From positions 1-43,205 of the IMG/VR virus record IMGVR_UViG_3300030012_002183: DNA of 43,205 nucleotides; one strand, written 5' to 3'. The notes under the pieces are model-generated. The model did not search any database. It was not told the DNA's origin and worked only from the letters and a program-made list of their open reading frames with translations. The DNA comes from a virus. This document shows positions 15,701-41,945 of the stretch, in pieces. How positions within the stretch are numbered: position 1 is the stretch's first letter; each line of letters begins with the position of its first letter. Made by a program: the position numbers and the translations under genes.

Positions 15701-16200
15701 GAGGCTCGGGTGCCGCCTTTACGGAGGAGGGCGTCATGTTCCCTGCCGATTCAATGTCCACCGATTCTTTGACGCAACACATTCACGAACACACGCTGCA
15801 AATCACCGTGCCCCCTGATGCAATCGGCAAGTTGGTGGTCGTCGAGGCAAAGGTTTCAGCCGGTGGGGATAATGACCAAACGGCAATTCTTTTCGGAACC
15901 GTTGAATGCACACAAACAAGTGATTCGGCGTCCTTTACCTGTCCTTTGGAGTCTGCGACCGAAAACCGTTTGACCACGATTTGTAGCGTGGACCTGGATG
16001 GTGCTGATGTGCCGGGGAACACAATCAAAATTACCATTCAGCGTCAGGCGGGCAAAGACAACGACAATGCCCGCTATGGCTCGGTTATTTTGCACAGCGT
16101 CAAAGCCAAGTTTGTCCGTGCGGGATTGAATGCCCGAAGTTCTATGTCCCGAGTTTTGGGGCTAAAGGGCAACGGGATTCGTTTTTCGCTGGATAACTAA
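9769..16200 (+). CDS. Giant multidomain tail hub / tip protein
   Basis: The product is 2143 residues from ATG 9769; a TTG at 9760 overlapping the tape measure stop is possible. It directly follows the tape measure gene, as tail hub (Tal-like) proteins do. Visible parts: a LamG/ConA-like region around residues 180-430 (KYEVFVNGVSV); a hub-type beta unit near 488 (VLLFRNGDNRPIIQGTI); a short HGLSGGDSVTISG module near 650; a module near 1150 (VALGDTDIVLEDTSEFP) like the insert in the head-tail adaptor; a second hub-like unit near 1420-1480 (SRITNVRVYYNNG, AFQIAKREYERA); a Pro/Gly-rich linker near 1845-1910; and a C-terminal beta domain. The hub parts would close the tube and the others bind the host surface. 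No peptidase or lysozyme motif was seen. Confidence 0.7.
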   Translation: MTRKLDGKFEAWLAGYYDDFIGTFCQVDDLNDPNAATYDHENTHHGNTLNGEAPLNPRFRHSVIERDDISQSYPLETLTGDSSYDHDAANNGIHEYITIDPLRLSDGVEWEGRATPRAPQSFIHQNRAYTGISGTGLSSGDGYMWFVNPRKTNSRYWLLSEHDGSYGRASMKDYTATSGSNVHPDALSHLGLSAANRKMGYLTGYFQWQAMSTLDASKTSRENIGQVVKSLGGKPFLVLDSRTYSNLPATPAAEMLLLMYEGNLNAMGDNDTFHIRMAHQSFTESADPQYKPSWVFDIGYKASAVSATATGLGTTAAITHAITMAQLAGGIEHHARDAVCGVGAGTTTTTALDDIWNDIDFVINFTTQKYEVFVNGVSVASNQALNSRPGGGSWVASDLYGWTLKLANVDNPANNTPNSWLVNTLIDRVGLIHPITNHLAKTTNSVALESINTRMQANGFMTGQMKVVDDSTALDPYPLISGSTTDDWSVLLFRNGDNRPIIQGTITKVRINQGLMQQTRNIQFDFSDNGRSIDRQTAVWEIGQTLNTGEAATGLLGEAEKLYNAMYFGAAELKSLDDKIGFIASNYEELRNQRTQLYSSHPIQFYNNEDTLGPNNPEVNWNSVEINTAVDGTSGGSGGTLSKTVIHYPNHGLSGGDSVTISGADNSALNGTHSILTTPSVATDFFYINVNSASGRSALVSHFLRVKMGGNNKLGLVLDPTSYTVPPAEDIYGKKVGLHGYSALLTRYSWDGGVSTVLGKRTGTGSIAGRIVLVIDEAWSTVSSDANLTTPLAAPYITPSVFWDRPRMTATGLTDTGDFTKVANRANHAVWMRDLPKSLWFKKMFGRVKEDAITVPHFTSDVEIHTSALTSASTQITTNITYTNNTQRDAQQAALLASGVGEIINTNGTVDSFVFNGCTTSGGRQVLTGVKFLSQSHATGKKIKFRDISDDYKHIWVLWADMRNNGLADADGSARKNKFGLLYPTPDNYNISISYTDQEDIDGLPSSFVNLKVGYDCDVWECDAETEPYSGNSWSSLGSDSLDTKYRNWEDKAGSFVILDFSKFFNLNTEANGGKTGQVSGGRITLGDLVIDTEGHPALIDDYWQEVPATPANSAAPFSYHENWHRFFSAGSNLAANTGTANVALGDTDIVLEDTSEFPNSGIGMIELERNSSNANTTERNLMFYIWESKNDSTNTLSGVSIMDLDETALTEDEIRESLFFALAASTRANAAFGAPKVIRYNDSINNITNGYDKIVFYSGLSAPFALRFMMSLNGFVESTNIGTYYASDMFRALGVLSGANVPLNQFSLPVSFDLNNIPITRRMTTTQQAVSSTVKSYNGASGSTIDWDNYGGAFDARGKSIMSIITELSQKIRLGSNSQSTIFTYTTGRDGKLDFRPAYNSGFAFTRNNLRVSQIEGSPQSRITNVRVYYNNGASFIDYPTAARGTELRWKYIDLPSIRSNSEAFQIAKREYERASTPSMKIVAEPLTPSTDDDKMLFGARYGYVADGAHRTIDAQKYLNGNAQTWTSWFNGVQYSGMQNCLDGNLTWVGFGTGAAYFSTKYAAGPDGGGSSGALVGGADHDPKYSYTWVGTKSVSDAVRIVHIPKDCPLTSNTSSDDLRIGILLADSYTTSTSVDDVEFLLVLIDPNTSIGTGGGLSTITDGYGSTTSVKFKHSGFHEIAIPSTYWTGGNGATGNERIVVSINAEYLRALLRNRNGNYGQGSFQYANAHDVAGFNTTNGGSEVRSHSPFPLGLKNNASMPTGDNPIFHAPRVLITEDLNFYPSTVVSYTDAALGLSSATNFSVKEVAYSVKNRDHDNLVLTLEQDESRALGGMASYIAPDINDGRTPGSEPTYTPSTPGAGNAGNPGGSGGYRPSFPPSNLFPPEVLPPVGGYIRKFDGAGPGGGTETISGQTVGHEMLGVNNTTDGMFDQIKGKMDFPAEFGNADGDFSILGQKKGGAPAQITKSIEGIDNVWSGGSGAAFTEEGVMFPADSMSTDSLTQHIHEHTLQITVPPDAIGKLVVVEAKVSAGGDNDQTAILFGTVECTQTSDSASFTCPLESATENRLTTICSVDLDGADVPGNTIKITIQRQAGKDNDNARYGSVILHSVKAKFVRAGLNARSSMSRVLGLKGNGIRFSLDN

Positions 16201-16919
16201 TCCGCACCCCATATTAGGGCAGCCTTTCGCAGCATCCGGGCTCGGTTGCGTGATATGCCATCAACCGTCATGAGTTCCTTGATGGTGCGCTTTTTGCTCA
16301 AGATTTCGTTTATCCCACCATACCTTTCTAAAAGGTTGCGAGCCGCCGTTGGCGTGATACCCTGAACACCACAAAGCATACGGATTCGTGGGTCGGTCTC
16401 GGACATGATACCACCCTGTAGGAACGGGTTGCCACTCCTTTTTCCCATGATAACCATTTGTGTGTAATTGGTCTTAATCCATGAAACAAAGTCTTCCATC
16501 GTATCAACCTGCATAAACCGAATCTTTGGGTGTCGGATGTGCAAGGTTTCTTTGTAGGCTTTGATGGTTGCATTCATCCGAGCGATTTGTATTGCCATTT
16601 GCTGGCGTGTGGGTCGCTTACCTCGAACGAATGGCTTTAGGGAGGTGCCATAGACAACAAGGAATGCCGTGTCAAAATGGTCTGCCAAATCGGTGAGTTG
16701 TGCATTGACGGTCCTCGACCTACCCTTTCCCGTAATGCTGTGGTAGAGGTCATTGATTTCTTTTGCTTCAACACCCCATCCCATCTCCGGAATGATGTAG
16801 TCGCCTACCGGCAACCGTTCAAGTTTTGCGCCGCCCTTTTCGTCCAATGATGCATCACCCAGGGCCATCAAAATCTTGTTGGCAACCTTTGGGTTCTCTC
16901 TATCATCAATCAACAGCAT
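16197..16919 (-). CDS. ERCC4-family (XPF/Hef-like) structure-specific nuclease
   Basis: The 240-residue protein has the ERCC4 nuclease core: I4-D-D-R-E8, G39-D40, and E51-A-K53 with D57. Canonical enzymes read ERKxxxD here, so the Arg is replaced by Ala while the metal-binding acidic residues and the Lys are kept. Residues about 180-240 form a tandem helix-hairpin-helix domain (LCGVQGITPTAARNLLERY; MTVDGISRNRARML). It probably cuts branched DNA (flaps, forks, junctions) during replication or recombination. No helicase domain is attached, unlike Hef. Its stop overlaps the tail hub stop on the other strand by 4 bases. A TATA-like box lies at 16945-16952. Confidence 0.85.
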   Translation of the reverse strand: MLLIDDRENPKVANKILMALGDASLDEKGGAKLERLPVGDYIIPEMGWGVEAKEINDLYHSITGKGRSRTVNAQLTDLADHFDTAFLVVYGTSLKPFVRGKRPTRQQMAIQIARMNATIKAYKETLHIRHPKIRFMQVDTMEDFVSWIKTNYTQMVIMGKRSGNPFLQGGIMSETDPRIRMLCGVQGITPTAARNLLERYGGINEILSKKRTIKELMTVDGISRNRARMLRKAALIWGAD

Positions 16920-16944
16920 GCTTTATATCCTATCTCGAGACCGC

Positions 16945-18320: not shown

Positions 18321-18500
18321 ATCGCATCGTTCAGCAAACTCGATTTGCTTTGACAAATCTATGCCATACTTGTTCTGTGCCGATTTGAAAAACTGAATCG
18401 TGTAGTCCTGGCCACATTGCTCTACCATGCATTCAATTGTCGAGAGGTCATACTCCCAAATCTCGCCGCAAACGAAAAGTGCCACATCAACAAAAGTCAT
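18318..18500 (-). CDS. Small protein downstream of Cas4-like nuclease, unknown
   Basis: This 60-residue protein begins MTFVDVALFVCGEIWEYDLS. Its ATG overlaps the nuclease stop as ATGA, and the nuclease tail supplies a GGAGGAAG SD. It has three Cys but no zinc-finger spacing. Tight coupling suggests a partner or regulator of the nuclease, but no family is recognised. Confidence 0.6.
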   Translation of the reverse strand: MTFVDVALFVCGEIWEYDLSTIECMVEQCGQDYTIQFFKSAQNKYGIDLSKQIEFAERCD

Positions 18501-19363
18501 TCTTCTTCCTCCGTTGGGTTGGGGGCCAATCCATGCATCTCCGGTTCACATTGGGTGGAGAAATCACACCACTGAGCACACGAATAGTCGTCCCACTTGA
18601 TGGGCCATTCCCGTGTAGTGAGTCCGTGTTTGACTTGGGCAAACCTCTTTGTGAAAGCGGTCGTTGTTCGCTTGTTGATTTTTTCAAGGACAAACATGCC
18701 TTGCGTCATGCCAAACCCAACGGTCTTGCTTCGGGTAGCCTCCATCTTGGCCGCATATTTCTCGTTGGCGGCATCCGGGGCGATGTAAAGGAAATGGGTC
18801 GCCATCGGCAGTTCCTCGATACCCGATGATGGGAGCGCACTTAGCGAAAGCATGTATTGGTAGAATGCGAGTTCTTTGCGGGTGTTGTTGTGCTTGAAAT
18901 CACTCCACTTGCCCGTTTTGATTTCAACCAAAGCCACATCACCGTTCTCAAACATGATGAGTCCGTCAAAGGCACCCGTCAAGACCACATCATTGATAGG
19001 GTCATACACCTTCAGTTTGGTCTCGGCCATGATGCACTCCCACGGCCCAACCTTTTGCGTCAATGCATCAAAAATCTCCATCGAGGCAAAGACGGCGTTA
19101 TCGGCCGCCACACCAAGTTCGGCCGCCCTCTCGAAAGCAACATCAACCTTTTTTGGGTCTTCAACAAGCGGTTCCAAAACGCTGTGAATGTTGGTGCCAC
19201 GAATCATTTCCGGTGTCCGAGGGAACGGGGCGTCGGGGAGTCCGATGTATCTCCACCAATACTTGCGGGGACAACGCTGATACAACATGTAGGAGGATTT
19301 ACTCATACGAAGAACCGTGTCTTCGTCTATCTTGGTCGGGTTGTAGGTGCTCTTCGGTTGCAT
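18497..19363 (-). CDS. Cas4/RecB-like PD-(D/E)XK nuclease with Fe-S cluster residues
   Basis: The 288-residue protein shows SYMLYQRCPRKYWWRY at the N-terminus, GTNIH (H60), GAFDGLI (D133), LVEIKTGK (E147, K149) and a QY pair in ELAFYQYML, the RecB-nuclease motif series. C31 plus C262, C266 and C272 fit the 4Fe-4S ligands of the Cas4/AddB group. Such enzymes trim DNA ends to give 3' tails, and occur in archaeal viruses apart from CRISPR. It lies between PolB and primase. Its C-terminal TEEEE is the coding reading of the next gene's SD. A TATA box 24 bases before ATG 19363 indicates a leaderless start. Confidence 0.85.
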   Translation of the reverse strand: MQPKSTYNPTKIDEDTVLRMSKSSYMLYQRCPRKYWWRYIGLPDAPFPRTPEMIRGTNIHSVLEPLVEDPKKVDVAFERAAELGVAADNAVFASMEIFDALTQKVGPWECIMAETKLKVYDPINDVVLTGAFDGLIMFENGDVALVEIKTGKWSDFKHNNTRKELAFYQYMLSLSALPSSGIEELPMATHFLYIAPDAANEKYAAKMEATRSKTVGFGMTQGMFVLEKINKRTTTAFTKRFAQVKHGLTTREWPIKWDDYSCAQWCDFSTQCEPEMHGLAPNPTEEEE

Positions 19364-21713: not shown

Positions 21714-22031
21714 TTATCGTCGGCCACGAGCTCGTGTTGGGATGCCATGCTTGTTTAGCCATGTGTAAATGGTCATGGGAGAAACTCCGAACATATCACC
21801 AATCTCCTGCATGGTCATTTGCTCGGTGATGTATTGCTCGACAAGCCATTCTTTGTCTCGGTATTTTTTGCCGGAGACAAATGGGACGGGGCGGAGAACC
21901 ATTTGATAATCTCCACAATCGCTCACAACGGAACTTCCACTTTCAAACACCGGGTCAATCTTAAAAATGCAATCAACCGTTCCTTCCGCATCGGTGAGTG
22001 CGAGTTGAACGGAGTGGTTATTGTCGGACAT
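21714..22031 (-). CDS. Helix-turn-helix DNA-binding protein
   Basis: The 105-residue protein has a C-terminal helix-turn-helix (EMTMQEIGDMFGVSPMTIYTW is the core region, residues about 72-92) followed by a basic tail (HGIPTRARGRR). The LNKHGIP ending is like the DNA-binding part of HNH-associated and phage regulators. The N-terminal 50 residues are beta-rich and unassigned. It has its own TATA-like box and sits alone between PolB and the methyltransferases, so it may regulate viral promoters. Confidence 0.7.
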   Translation of the reverse strand: MSDNNHSVQLALTDAEGTVDCIFKIDPVFESGSSVVSDCGDYQMVLRPVPFVSGKKYRDKEWLVEQYITEQMTMQEIGDMFGVSPMTIYTWLNKHGIPTRARGRR

Positions 22032-22074: not shown

Positions 22075-22983
22075 TCATAGCCATAATAGCGAGCTTCGTA
22101 GTCCTCTCATGACCGCCGACATAGCCTGTGGGCAGACGGCATTGGCTATCACAAGATTCAATTCACCCTTTGTGAATGTGTCCTCCATGAGGTCGTAGGC
22201 ATCGGGGAAGCCACCCAAAAGTGCTTTCTCTTTTAGCGTGATGCTACGAATCTTGGTGAACAAGCCATTGGGGTTCTCGTATCGTATCGTGGGGTTTTGG
22301 CTGGTTGTTGTGTTGGCGACGGTTCCGCGAGGTCTGTCGCATAGCGTGTTGCGGAGGCAATCGGATTCACCAGCCCCACCCATATTGAGTAGGGCATCAT
22401 CACGCAATCCAGTGGCATCAATAACCTCATCCCATGCCTTTGCACCACCTGTTTTTGTCAATGACCAGCCCTCACCGGCAAAATACCGATAACGGTTTTG
22501 TGGAGCTCCATAATCGGATGCCATGACCATTTGATGGGGTACTGAGGGGGATATGTGATTCCTGATAGGTGGAACATTCTCCATTGACCATGAATCGCAC
22601 ATACCGGCATTTTTCAGTCGTTGCACCACACGGAGGAACGAGTGAACAAACCGCATGGCCTTTGCTACCTTCTCCGGGTAGAGTTTGCCCTTTGCCGCCG
22701 ATATTGCCTGACATGGTGGTGAGCCGTGAATGTGGATGTGATACCCAAGCCGACCATCCATGTAGGGTATGAGTGCCGCCTCGACCAATTCAAAGTCGGC
22801 ATCATCATCGCCTAACTCGTGCAAGACAAAGGGAACATCGGGATAATTGCGCTTGTGTAGGGCTTCCGCCACACTCCAATTGTCCACAGACAAAACAACC
22901 TTTGCACCTGCGTCGAGCATACCCTGGGTAGCACCTCCGCCACCACAATACAAATCAACGCTGATAACCTGTTTCACAACCAT
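22075..22983 (-). CDS. C5-cytosine DNA methyltransferase
   Basis: The 302-residue protein shows motif I (DLYCGGGGATQGMLDAG, residues 10-26), the catalytic motif IV GSPPCQ with C91, motif VI ENV (135-137), motif VIII QNRYRY (162-167), a RPRGTVANT block (motif IX) and NAVCPQ (motif X). It transfers a methyl group from S-adenosylmethionine to C5 of cytosine in DNA. The target-recognition region between motifs VIII and IX is short (about 50 residues). The gene overlaps the upstream methyltransferase by 10 bases. No restriction endonuclease is visible beside it, so protection of viral DNA against host restriction is the likely role. Confidence 0.92.
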   Translation of the reverse strand: MVVKQVISVDLYCGGGGATQGMLDAGAKVVLSVDNWSVAEALHKRNYPDVPFVLHELGDDDADFELVEAALIPYMDGRLGYHIHIHGSPPCQAISAAKGKLYPEKVAKAMRFVHSFLRVVQRLKNAGMCDSWSMENVPPIRNHISPSVPHQMVMASDYGAPQNRYRYFAGEGWSLTKTGGAKAWDEVIDATGLRDDALLNMGGAGESDCLRNTLCDRPRGTVANTTTSQNPTIRYENPNGLFTKIRSITLKEKALLGGFPDAYDLMEDTFTKGELNLVIANAVCPQAMSAVMRGLRSSLLWL

Positions 22984-23900
22984 TCACCAAGCGTCTTTTG
23001 CTTTGCTTGGACAAGGTTAATCGTTTCCCATTCTTTCAGTTCTTCGTGCGACCCGTTGTAAAAGACGAGAACATTTTGATGCATCTTGCCGATTTTGCGA
23101 TTGCGCTCAAACTGACGGGCGACACGCAAAGCCAATGTCCCCACCACATTTTGTAGGATAATCTCGTTGTAAAGTCGGAACCCATGCACTTGACAGGCCT
23201 CGATGGTCTTTGACACGAAGTTGCATAGGAAACCCTCTTTGTCCCGATAGTCCCCAACCACGACGGCGGCGAAGGTATTCGGTTTCATCTTGGACAATGC
23301 TTTGCCCATGATAGCGGCATACGCCTCGTCAAAGTCGGATGAATCCATGTTTGAAATATCGGCGGGGTCGTCGGAATACACTTCCAAATCACCATACGGT
23401 GGGCAGGTCAAAAGGAAGTCAAACACCCCGTTAGGCCATTGGTCAAGGGTTTGTAGGCTATCTCCCACATTCCAAATAGGCTTGTAAAAGTCGTCGCCAA
23501 ACATTTCATTGGCTTGGGCACGATTAGCATTCACTTGTTCTTCACGGAGTTCGTGTCCGATATAACACAAGCCCATTTTTCCGGCGACCACACCACGGAC
23601 TGAACCACCAGCGAATGGGTCGAGCACCGTGCCGTCCTTCTTTGCGAACCATGTGTAAAGGATTTCACAAAGGGCTGGGTCAAAGATGGAAGTGTCGGAT
23701 TGGGTGGCAACCTGAACATCACCCGTTTCATCCATCCATTCTTTGATGTTAAATGCCCGTGCATCTCGACCGATTTCCGACTGAATACCCAAAGCAACCC
23801 ACGCCCGCTTGCGTCTCTGCCAACGGTCGGTGCTGGTATTGATGATGGAGAAGGGGTTGTCCATGAACCGCTCCTGAAGTCCATGTGGGTTCTTTGCCAT
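22974..23900 (-). CDS. Amino-type (N4-cytosine/N6-adenine) DNA methyltransferase
   Basis: From ATG 23900 the protein has 308 residues. AdoMet-binding motif I is D94-PFAGGSVRG and catalytic motif IV is T165-CPPY169, with motif I before motif IV. The catalytic block reads TCPPY rather than DPPY/NPPY, a form nearer to the TSPPY of some N4-cytosine enzymes. ATG 23900 is 24 bases from a TATA box; an in-frame TTG at 23906 is less likely. Product and target sequence cannot be told from the sequence. It is cotranscribed with the C5 methyltransferase. Confidence 0.88.
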   Translation of the reverse strand: MAKNPHGLQERFMDNPFSIINTSTDRWQRRKRAWVALGIQSEIGRDARAFNIKEWMDETGDVQVATQSDTSIFDPALCEILYTWFAKKDGTVLDPFAGGSVRGVVAGKMGLCYIGHELREEQVNANRAQANEMFGDDFYKPIWNVGDSLQTLDQWPNGVFDFLLTCPPYGDLEVYSDDPADISNMDSSDFDEAYAAIMGKALSKMKPNTFAAVVVGDYRDKEGFLCNFVSKTIEACQVHGFRLYNEIILQNVVGTLALRVARQFERNRKIGKMHQNVLVFYNGSHEELKEWETINLVQAKQKTLGEWL

Positions 23901-23921
23901 ATTCAATGTATGAACGGCATA

Positions 23922-23931
23922 GGATATAAAG
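23922..23931 (-). promoter_or_regulatory. TATA box CTTTATATCC, methyltransferase operon
   Basis: Minus-strand CTTTATATCC stands 24 bases before ATG 23900. About 54 bases further upstream is the 11-base element GTCATGCGTTT (23985-23995), also found at the same relative place before the promoter at 34857. Confidence 0.75.
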
Positions 23932-24023
23932 GTGCCTGTTGGCGGTCTGCCACCCCCTTATAAGCACAAATAAAAATATCAGAAAAACGCATGACCAGAC
24001 ACCATTTTTTCTTTCTGAAAGAA

Positions 24024-24866
24024 TCAAAGCCATGCCGGTTCCTCGACTACCCTAATCGGTGGGGTTGGTTCAAACCAGTGTTCCTGTGGTATGATGTCCC
24101 GGTGCCCAATCACCCAGAACAAATCGCCCTCCACCAAATGTGGCAAGCATTTGGCTTCATAAATCGGGTCGAGGTCAATGCCGCAAATATCACCATGCAC
24201 GGCGTCGTGATAACCATGCGCAGAAAGCGTCAGAACGGTGTTTCTGCGCCATCCATCGGGCGCATAGTGGTCTAATCGCCGGTCGGGATTTGCGCCCACA
24301 GAAACGCCGAGAACGGGCAAATCTAAACCCATGTCTTTCAGTCCCCAAAGGACGCCAGCGAGCGTCATACCCGAGCCAACGGGGACAACGATTCTCTTTG
24401 TTTCGGCCGGTATGTTGAGTGTTTGTTTCCTTGTTTGATTAACAGCCTCCCAACACTCCATTCCGAATGGGATTTCAACAAAGGATGAATGAGCCAATGC
24501 ATCATCACGGGCTCGTGCAACAATCACGGTGTTGTAGCCGGGGAAGTGGCGAATGACTTCGGCTCCATTTTGCTCGGCGTGGATGGTTTGCATCGTTTCC
24601 TTGCCCCGTGGGACATGCACCCTACACGGCACATCAAGATGTTGGGCAATGCGACTCACAATGGACACCTGCGGGGAATGTCGAGCACCGGCCGTGATTA
24701 AACCGTCAGCACCATAGGATAGATACCAGCATGTTCGGACTTTGCCTCCACGGACACCTTTCACATGGAAAAGGTCGTCTCGCTTCAACATGAATCCACC
24801 AATCCTTTGAATGGGCGTAAGCTCGTTTGGGTCGCTGGTCAGATGTTTAACGGACCAATCATCCAT
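24024..24866 (-). CDS. PLP-dependent enzyme, ACC deaminase / D-cysteine desulfhydrase fold
   Basis: The 280-residue protein has the fold-type II PLP pattern. LKRDDLFHVKGVRGGKVRT carries the probable Schiff-base Lys (K42), TAGARHSPQVSIVSRIAQHL is the conserved Ser/Gln block, and VPVGSGMTLAG (164-168) is the phosphate-binding loop. The GVRGGKxR and EIPFGMECWEAV forms match a branch found in phages and actinobacteria whose substrate is not established, rather than metabolic ACC deaminase. It lies directly upstream of two DNA methyltransferases. PLP enzymes are known to take part in thymine hypermodification in some phages, so a role in DNA modification is a reasonable guess; amino-acid scavenging is the alternative. 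It has its own TATA-like box. Confidence 0.8.
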   Translation of the reverse strand: MDDWSVKHLTSDPNELTPIQRIGGFMLKRDDLFHVKGVRGGKVRTCWYLSYGADGLITAGARHSPQVSIVSRIAQHLDVPCRVHVPRGKETMQTIHAEQNGAEVIRHFPGYNTVIVARARDDALAHSSFVEIPFGMECWEAVNQTRKQTLNIPAETKRIVVPVGSGMTLAGVLWGLKDMGLDLPVLGVSVGANPDRRLDHYAPDGWRRNTVLTLSAHGYHDAVHGDICGIDLDPIYEAKCLPHLVEGDLFWVIGHRDIIPQEHWFEPTPPIRVVEEPAWL

Positions 24867-40475: not shown

Positions 40476-40942
40476 TCTTCTTCCTCCTCTTCTTTGTCAA
40501 AGTCCATGTAATCAACACGGCCCATGAGGAAGGCGTGGACTGAACAAGATGGCTCCTCCCCATTCGGGCACAGAATCTCAGCCCACATTTGATTCGCTTC
40601 AACCCCCATGTCCTCCAGGTTGTCAAATTCTTCCTGAAAAGAGCAGTTCCACCAATAATTGTGGTCAATGTTTCCAATTTCCCAAGATACCCACACATTA
40701 GAACTGGCTTTCAGACATTCAATGGTTTTCCAGGAGGTGGGGTCGCTTTTATCTGCCAGCACAAGGTCTCGACCTTTGTGCATCCTGCCCTTCCCTGCTT
40801 TGATGTGGAGCCCTTTCACTCCATTGACTCTCTTTTGAGCCACCATCCGACAAACTTCCACAAACTCAAACCATGGAGTGTTGTGGTAGTTCAGGTCAAC
40901 GCTTGCATTTGCTCTTGGGTATCTGTATGGTTCTTCACTCAT
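40472..40942 (-). CDS. Unknown protein with poly-Glu end (156 aa)
   Basis: From ATG 40942 the product begins MSEEPYRYPRANASVDLNYH; the longer frame to 40987 lies inside ArdC and is not used. It is mixed alpha/beta, with basic VNGVKGLHIKAGKGRMHKGR in the middle and DKEEEEEE at the end. The SD GGAGGAAAAG lies in the ArdC tail. Function unknown; genes next to ArdC often assist antirestriction, but there is no direct evidence. Confidence 0.6.
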   Translation of the reverse strand: MSEEPYRYPRANASVDLNYHNTPWFEFVEVCRMVAQKRVNGVKGLHIKAGKGRMHKGRDLVLADKSDPTSWKTIECLKASSNVWVSWEIGNIDHNYWWNCSFQEEFDNLEDMGVEANQMWAEILCPNGEEPSCSVHAFLMGRVDYMDFDKEEEEEE

Positions 40943-41945
40943 CTTTCTTTTCCTCCTCCTCGAATGTTGTTTGGAGAATGTAATCAACGGCTGCTTGTGC
41001 CCTTGACCCTGCTTTGATGATAAAGCCTGGGTCGGAATCCAATCGCTTCAGCCAACTGGCGATGTAGGATGCTTGGTTTTCAAGACCATCTTCCAATGCT
41101 TCGGAAGGTAGGATGTTGAAATGTCTGCACAAAAGGGATGCACCCATCTCGGCAACCAGCTCCTCGAAGGCGTATTCTTTGTCTCCGAAGATGCCGAATG
41201 TCCTGTTCTTGCGCTTTGGGTGGCCTGTTGAATGAATGGACTCGTGGAACAATGTGGGGAGCATGGCGTAGCCATCTGGGAACGCATGGCGGTCTGGCAT
41301 ACCGATGGAATCTCTGCCCAACGAATAGAAGGCACGGGCACCGCCCCAACTGACCGGGATGCCCTCCTTGTCGAGGTAGATGTCAAACAACTCCTGTTCA
41401 ATGGCTTCCTCCCGCTCGGTCATGGATAACTTCTCCTCCTCGGACAGGTCAATCGGGTTTGCTGGGATGTTGGTTTGGCTCCTGCCGAACACTTTGAACC
41501 ACTTGAGAATAGGGATTCGCTTTTCTTCCTCGTTGCCGTAGTCGTCCTTCTCTTTGATTTTTATGAGATTGAAATAGACAACTGTGTGGGCCGACATACC
41601 CTTCTGCACGCCATAATAGGTAGTGGTGTGCTTGTAAGGTTTGCCGTTTTTGCCCTCTCGCAGTTCGTATTCGCCCTGCTCGATAGCATACTTGCGGCCT
41701 ACCTCCGACCACTGCTTGAACGATGCAAACTCGGTGTCGCCAGCAAACTGGAGGATGAATTGATTGACTCCACGGTAGGGTTTGCCTGACACGATGTTGT
41801 GAGCCATGCCCGTCGAGCACTTGCTGGTGTCCCATGGCTTGTTCCACGGTTTGACACCTTCTTTGATTTGCTTCTTGAACATATCGGCAATCTCCTGCAC
41901 GACTTTGGCTCGTGCGTTGGCCGCCTTGTTTCCTTTTCCGCTCAT
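40935..41945 (-). CDS. ardC: ArdC-like antirestriction protein with zincin metallopeptidase domain
   Basis: The 336-residue protein has the ArdC/TraC-type N-terminal DNA-binding region (residues about 10-130: WNKPWDTSKCSTGMAHNIVS, KPYRGVNQFIL, GKPYKHTTTYYGVQKG). A C-terminal zincin domain follows with H234-E-S-I-H238 and GH at 241-242, and the downstream acidic block EELVAEMGASLL. ArdC proteins of conjugative plasmids bind single-stranded DNA and protect entering DNA from restriction. Here it is the first gene of its operon and may act early in infection. A GGAGGT SD lies 8 bases before ATG 41945. Confidence 0.85.
   Translation of the reverse strand: MSGKGNKAANARAKVVQEIADMFKKQIKEGVKPWNKPWDTSKCSTGMAHNIVSGKPYRGVNQFILQFAGDTEFASFKQWSEVGRKYAIEQGEYELREGKNGKPYKHTTTYYGVQKGMSAHTVVYFNLIKIKEKDDYGNEEEKRIPILKWFKVFGRSQTNIPANPIDLSEEEKLSMTEREEAIEQELFDIYLDKEGIPVSWGGARAFYSLGRDSIGMPDRHAFPDGYAMLPTLFHESIHSTGHPKRKNRTFGIFGDKEYAFEELVAEMGASLLCRHFNILPSEALEDGLENQASYIASWLKRLDSDPGFIIKAGSRAQAAVDYILQTTFEEEEKKDE

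Follow-up and report, generated by a model that had tools for sequence, protein, structure and literature searches.

Known PLP-dependent hypermodification systems and the locus examined

The pyridoxal 5'-phosphate (PLP)-dependent steps known from phage DNA hypermodification depend on 5-hydroxymethyluracil. In the account attributed to Lee et al., the PLP enzymes of phages M6 and ViI reportedly act after amino-acid attachment, by decarboxylation. The PLP gene is listed in the thymidine-hypermodification cassette of Pseudomonas phage M6 (PMC9476957). Sphaerotilus phage SN1 is a near-copy of this phage, and its PLP protein (SN1_023) defines phrog_7093 (2e-160). In Glutamicibacter phage Montesquieu, the PLP gene is flanked by an aGPT-Pplase gene on one side and a P-loop/kinase pair on the other. 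A search with its product retrieved ViI-like phages, Vi01 among them, and this product also matches phrog_3650. The SN1/M6, Vi01, and Montesquieu genomes all contain hydroxymethylase genes and, in part, pyrophosphorylase genes too. The present analysis concerns a PLP enzyme gene in the IMG/VR virus record IMGVR_UViG_3300030012_002183, whose entire 43,205 nucleotides are referred to here as the window, together with two DNA methyltransferase (MTase) genes downstream of it, one of the amino type and one of the C5-cytosine type.

These three genes were picked out by a sequence-only reading as a possible DNA modification cassette, and their positions were confirmed by matches to PF00291, N6_N4_Mtase, and C5 DNA_methylase. 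In our judgment, it is rather likely that the PLP enzyme and the amino-MTase-like protein catalyze consecutive steps in a single DNA hypermodification. The basis obtained here consists of the fold and catalytic residues of the PLP enzyme, its fusion to or nesting in the MTase, the repeated recruitment of such enzymes, and the missing 5-hydroxymethyldeoxyuridine (5-hmdU) machinery.

Sequence, fold, and active site of the PLP enzyme

The PLP open reading frame (ORF) of the window matched PF00291 at 2.4e-10 (40.7 bits, cut-off 35), phrog_3650 at 1.2e-29, and the M6 family, phrog_7093, at 7.2e-8. By hhalign it was aligned with the Vi01 protein at 2.3e-13, and the match to cellular DcyD was also strong (8.1e-11). 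The Schiff-base lysine, Lys42, is found within GVRGGKVR (residues 37-44) and was invariant in the 38 relatives aligned. Other motifs are SPQ (residues 64-66), the phosphate loop GSGMTLAG, and a Tyr236-Glu237 pair (YEAK). An AlphaFold2 (AF2) model of the protein had a predicted local distance difference test score (pLDDT) of 89.6, and its best PDB matches were D-cysteine desulfhydrase, a homologue of 1-aminocyclopropane-1-carboxylate (ACC) deaminase, and ACC deaminase. The ACC-deaminase fold and the GVRGGKxR lysine region noted from the sequence alone were both upheld.

D-cysteine desulfhydrase and ACC deaminase (1j0a, 4d8t, 1tzk) share the fold, the lysine loop, and the glycine-rich phosphate loop with the window enzyme, and ACC deaminase also shares the acid after Tyr. 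They differ in the substrate loop, which contains SNH rather than SPQ, and the window protein is shorter. The window enzyme has SPQ where DcyD has SNH, as do 54 of the 58 clade members. The M6 (SN1_023) and ViI (Vi01_182) PLP enzymes are similar to the window enzyme in having the PALP fold, the catalytic lysine, and a Tyr-acid-x-Lys motif. SPQ and GYNxxI are further shared with the ViI types; Y-E-x-K with SPQ is common to the window and ViI types, and in the M6 types the former motif reads Y-D-x-K.

An alternative is an auxiliary metabolic enzyme which acts on a free amino acid and whose neighbors are coincidental; the weak similarity to D-cysteine desulfhydrase, CuyA, and ACC deaminase would be in line with this. 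However, the D-cysteine desulfhydrase and ACC deaminase scores fall far under the curated cut-offs (TIGR01275, 41.1 bits against 289.4; TIGR01274, 12.8 against 392), and the gene linkage described below also speaks against this explanation.

The Tyr236-Glu237 pair aligns with Tyr287-Thr288 of D-cysteine desulfhydrase and with Glu295/296 of ACC deaminase, and the acid of Y-[E/D]-x-K is present in nearly all members of the PLP lineages. A carboxylate at the pyridine-nitrogen position is reported to enhance the electron sink and to favor a quinonoid (PMC3344862). An acid at this position agrees less well with simple beta-elimination than with reactions that pass through a stabilized carbanion, decarboxylation being an example.

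Beta-replacement is the usual chemistry of fold type II, which includes cysteine and tryptophan synthases. A PLP enzyme of this kind could itself attach an amino acid to the base (aminoacrylate plus base amine), with the MTase methylating or recognizing the product, and both a kinase and a hydroxymethylase would be unnecessary. The order of steps given above for M6 and ViI, with the PLP enzyme acting after attachment, does not agree with this route. Moreover, such enzymes have Ser/Thr at the pyridine nitrogen, where nearly all members of the lineages considered here have Glu/Asp (PMC3344862). We give beta-replacement only a slim chance.

Linkage of PLP enzymes to one MTase family

The window amino-MTase contains motif I (DPFAGGSVRG) followed by motif IV (TCPPYG), and corresponds to the MTase portion at the C-terminus of phage proteins of the ParB-MTase family (phrog_498, phrog_12517), with which it shares a module containing DPFAGGS and (S/T)CPPY. 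It differs from that family in lacking the N-terminal ParB domain. A ParB hidden Markov model (HMM) had no match anywhere in the window at E<1e-3, and ParB is also missing in two related loci (L033, L044). ParB-N6_N4 MTase fusions were found to be phage-enriched in the PNAS 2025 ParB-CTPase survey, the text of which does not mention PLP (PMC12704722). No description of ParB-MTase-PLP proteins was found in the literature searched, although there may be an earlier one.

In a PLP-anchored census, IMG/VR was scanned and 51 PLP relatives with 46-60% identity were examined using HMMs for PLP, MTase, and ParB. The PLP domain was fused to, nested in, or adjacent to an amino-MTase in 47 of these. Both were found in one ORF in 41 cases (31 nested, five with the PLP domain C-terminal, and five incomplete or otherwise partial), and as separate genes in the locus in six. 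The number of independent fusion cases is below 41 because many of the loci closely duplicate one another (L006-L017, for example). Nesting of PLP within the MTase was seen in 33 loci in total: the 31 from IMG/VR, one metagenome-assembled genome, and the cultured Pseudanabaena phage Pam4, whose nested PLP-MTase ORF is 829 amino acids (aa) long. The nesting point was always at MTase model position ~152-156, in the stretch that separates the end of helix B from strand 3, and the fused protein often carries a ParB domain ahead.

No MTase was found in the contigs of the other four relatives, all of them fragmentary and three near-identical, and only in these was the PLP gene seen without DNA-modification neighbors. 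These four contigs would suit an auxiliary metabolic enzyme, but an MTase in the same ORF in 41 of 51 relatives and the recruitment of three PLP lineages argue against one, and we consider that explanation very improbable. That the PLP enzyme belongs with DNA modification, as first proposed, is supported by the 47 MTase-linked relatives, and also because its nearest functionally placed relatives come from M6 and ViI, which are thymidine-hypermodification phages. Since these relatives belong to a published pathway, the earlier statement that this branch has no known substrate was too strong.

Several fused or neighboring proteins have additional features. Four fused proteins (L022, L036, L039, L046) contain a cysteine-rich domain beside the PLP domain with weak similarity to DUF3109. 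Two others (L053:10778-11650 and L032:4875-5747) carry an additional conserved domain C-terminal to the PLP domain, possibly for a further tailoring step. It had no significant Pfam match in either protein and no PHROGs match in L053, and its identification as an amidoligase was dropped since neither Pfam nor PHROGs supported it. In one contig without an MTase (L028:7380-8360), a Thy1 (ThyX-like) gene is found just before the PLP gene, and the PLP partner may differ there.

The linkage was also viewed from the MTase side in two partly overlapping samples. Among the 80 best relatives of the whole MTase, a sample biased against nested forms, 11 had a PLP gene within the stretch examined. Among the 80 best relatives of the MTase C-terminal half, a PLP gene was found near 23 (two nested and 21 close by), nearly all of them M6-like, and in about 20 of the 80 loci an M6-like PLP gene was directly beside the MTase. 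Only two MTases of the latter sample had insertions of more than 100 aa (L168, L195); both insertions were PLP domains, from two lineages. The PLP protein had no match in plasmids, and a pattern scan of bacterial genomes gave only two.

Judging from alignments and trees, PLP enzymes of three lineages occur as partners of this MTase family, namely the window clade, an M6-like lineage, and a ViI-like lineage. The M6-like lineage itself occurs both beside and inside ParB-MTase proteins. In Erythrobacter phage ZS04 and in L195, its PLP domain is nested at the same MTase position, and it is otherwise adjacent; the nested ZS04 domain matched phrog_7093 at 1.1e-37. In the Mycobacterium phages AlanGrant and Vincenzo, a ViI/Montesquieu-like PLP gene overlaps the MTase gene. 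The window clade was supported at 96/91. The M6-like clade of MTase-adjacent or nested domains was supported at 100/99 and joined M6/Rhizobium at 96/85, and AlanGrant and Vincenzo fell inside the Montesquieu/ViI group at 99/95. Two tree rows, L062 (SN1) and L071 (RHph_I65), were excluded from the MTase-adjacent count. The trees did not unite the phage PLP enzymes in a single clade to the exclusion of cellular DcyD. Given the length of the deep branches, among which E. coli DcyD may fall, three MTase-associated lineages are claimed but not the order of events.

An MTase apparently in place of the 5-hmdU route

The M6 and ViI systems differ from the PLP-MTase genomes tested in having the PF00303 hydroxymethylase and pyrophosphorylases, whereas the PLP partner in the latter is an MTase-like enzyme. 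PF00303 was found in none of 63 PLP-MTase records (33 + 30), compared to all three hypermodification phages used as a control (SN1, Vi01, and Montesquieu). The 63 records include the complete genomes of Pam4, ZS04, AlanGrant, and Alsa_1, the last a weaker case with PLP and MTase genes ~1 kb apart; since many others are short fragments, it is only in the complete genomes that the absence carries much weight. Similarly, phrog_3271 was found in none of 33 PLP-MTase records and in two of the three hypermodification phages, and aGPT-Pplase2 of SN1 was detected in SN1 alone and in no PLP-MTase record tested. Conversely, none of six phages with M6/ViI-type PLP enzymes had an MTase of the ParB-MTase family.

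On this gene-content pattern, the MTase seems to take the place of the 5-hmdU route. This distribution suggests that the MTase-like enzyme here fills the role that falls elsewhere to hydroxymethylase and kinase, attaching the group on which the PLP enzyme acts. The comparison with thymine hypermodification drawn in the sequence-only reading is thus not transferable as far as the 5-hmdU route is concerned.

The linkage could also be explained by an ordinary N4-cytosine or N6-adenine MTase next to a separate PLP modification, both joined as DNA-acting enzymes by the ParB module. Unchanged MTase motifs, the absence of PLP from most MTase relatives, and the occurrence of the two as separate genes in the window as well as in some relatives are all consistent with this. 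It would, however, need an amino-acid-bearing base from elsewhere, yet PF00303 is absent from the 63 records and phrog_3271 from the 33. Furthermore, the nesting of two PLP lineages at the same MTase point argues for coupling rather than mere proximity. Two separate modifications are therefore considered decidedly unlikely.

Proposed pathway

Successive action of the two enzymes would begin with the MTase-like enzyme acting on a base in the viral DNA and adding a group which bears an alpha-amino acid. In the simplest case, the donor would be S-adenosylmethionine (SAM), with the 3-amino-3-carboxypropyl (acp) arm transferred in place of the methyl group. The PLP enzyme would then form an external aldimine with the DNA-borne amino acid, and the acid-assisted pyridine ring (Glu237) would allow the carboxylate to be removed, so that the base would carry an aminoalkyl (aminopropyl) group; neither a hydroxymethylase nor a kinase would be needed. 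We infer from the relatives that the PLP enzyme meets its substrate on DNA and decarboxylates it. Transfer of acp followed by decarboxylation is the shortest route because SAM is a sure MTase substrate, with an acp arm that is itself an alpha-amino acid. Even so, acp as the donated group is put forward as a hypothesis only, and a tentative one. We are more doubtful still of a fully self-contained enzyme in which the MTase-like part transfers acp to a DNA base and a PLP domain nested in it then removes the carboxylate to give an aminopropyl base, with no hydroxymethylated intermediate.

There are precedents for parts of such a pathway. Mom (carboxamidomethyl) and TYW2-type acp transferases place non-methyl groups on nucleobases, and for tRNA there are acp transferases of the class I fold; no sequence link from these to the window MTase was seen, no search aimed at one having been made. 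The CmoX/CmoA/CmoY system resembles the pair in that an MTase relative transfers a handle derived from SAM and a second enzyme elaborates it (PMC12783734). It differs in that CmoX is a C5 enzyme using carboxy-SAM (Cx-SAM) and requiring Arg350 at the position of HhaI Asn304 (PMC12783734), whereas the PLP partner here is an amino-MTase.

Several observations weigh against the proposed pathway. Identity between the window PLP enzyme and those of M6 and ViI is only ~22-30%. In the window itself, PLP and MTase are separate genes and the MTase is without ParB, and 57 of the 80 relatives in the C-terminal-half sample had no PLP gene within the stretch examined. In MTases of this fold, the face between helix B and strand 3 points away from the active site. 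Nesting on this opposite face does not imply direct channeling. An AF2 model of the fused protein was discarded as a guide to domain geometry, since its predicted template modeling score (pTM) was 0.46 and the inter-domain arrangement unreliable. Comparison of PLP-linked (59) and PLP-free (71) MTases revealed no residue switch in motifs I, II, and IV, and with these motifs the same there is no sign in them that methyl transfer has given way to acp transfer. An MTase family that transfers acp should therefore do so in its PLP-free majority as well; if that majority does not transfer acp, the PLP domain acts on something else and an explanation on the SAM side gains.

On the SAM side, the PLP domain could decarboxylate SAM to decarboxylated SAM (dcSAM) for aminopropyl transfer, or clear inhibitory S-adenosylhomocysteine (SAH) or homocysteine. 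Both SAM and homocysteine are free alpha-amino acids, the closest solved structures act on sulfur amino acids, and nesting in one protein would tie supply to use. Identical MTase motifs with and without PLP would also be expected if the MTase chemistry were unchanged. Nevertheless, the PLP relatives are found in cassettes whose modified amino acid is on DNA, most MTases of the family do not need PLP, and no motif tested indicates spermidine-synthase-like use of dcSAM. Such a role in cofactor supply or clearance is considered unlikely.

The C5-MTase and the viral context

The C5-MTase start overlaps the amino-MTase stop by 10 nucleotides (nt). It contains HGSPPCQ and retains Asn in VIANAV, which is aligned with QIGNSV of 3g7u. 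PF00145 was found in only three of 32 related records and no C5 relative was seen beside the PLP genes at the PLP-anchored loci, so it was rejected as a conserved partner. A CmoX-type identity was also rejected, since SPPC is present but the SAM-type Asn is retained and Arg is absent. Of the proposed set of one PLP enzyme and two MTases, the part with the amino-MTase stands (47 of 51 relatives) and the part with the C5-MTase does not. The DNA-modification idea was thus right in kind; the C5-MTase drops out, and the 5-hmdU comparison gives way to an MTase-first route.

Table 1. Coordinates of features in the window.
Feature	Position	Strand	Evidence
PLP-dependent enzyme, fold type II (PALP), 280 aa	24024..24866	-	PF00291, phrog_3650, alignments, AF2 model
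Amino-type DNA MTase-like protein	22974..23906	-	PF01555 9e-10; phrog_12517 3.2e-88; phrog_498 4.6e-69
C5-cytosine MTase	22075..22983	-	PF00145 3.1e-16; alignment to 3g7u
Archaeal-type TATA-like element CTTTATATCCT	23921..23931	-	~30 nt before MTase ATG at 23900
Small helix-turn-helix protein	21714-22031	-	weak match to mad1 of PADLOC
ArdC-type anti-restriction protein	40935-41945	-	ArdcN 1.3e-23; MPTase-PolyVal 1.2e-29
PD-(D/E)XK exonuclease	18497-19363
ERCC4-HHH nuclease	16197-16919

The record is linear and may be a fragment. Its profile matches include PolB, a clamp-loader, an ERCC4-HHH nuclease, a tail-tube protein, and a tape-measure protein, and PolB had its best coverage in haloarchaeal tailed viruses (22-23% identity). 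CTTTATATNCT is found in 10 copies in the window, between positions 16921 and 37559, compared to 0.02 expected, several of them ~30 nt 5' of start codons (PolB, PD-DEXK, MTase). These copies are probably archaeal TATA boxes, and the mRNAs probably leaderless. Taken together, the profile matches, the PolB coverage, and the TATA-like copies suggest a tailed virus with an archaeal host. The amino-MTase may start at ATG 23900 instead of TTG 23906, and given the TATA-like element before this ATG it may have its own leaderless transcript.

Among the neighbors identified, no cognate restriction endonuclease of the kind expected in a type II restriction-modification system adjoins the MTase genes. The two nucleases in Table 1 are farther away and look like replication or recombination genes. 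A hydroxymethylase or kinase was likewise not found among the window proteins scanned, some ORFs being outside the scan. Both absences had been noted from the sequence alone. It is plausible that the pair shields viral DNA from host restriction, and the ArdC-type protein is a second hint of conflict with it. The small helix-turn-helix protein and the amino-MTase weakly match mad1 and mad2 of PADLOC, respectively, but these matches are too partial to call a MADS system.

Significance

At least three PLP lineages, of one wider group with the enzymes of the known 5-hydroxymethyluracil-dependent steps, are found here with one MTase family and without the machinery for that route, in some cases within a single protein. 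A PLP gene beside or in an MTase gene suggests a way of adding a larger-than-methyl group to viral DNA which has not yet been described, and there is a fair chance of new chemistry. If acp transfer to DNA is true, it would to our knowledge be the first, and would yield a new DNA base. The pair is carried by the cultured phages Pam4, Vincenzo/AlanGrant, and ZS04. If it makes a new base, it would constitute a compact hypermodification system across many tailed viruses and an archaeal one, and would explain a large phage family that is annotated yet unassigned (phrog_3650, phrog_498).

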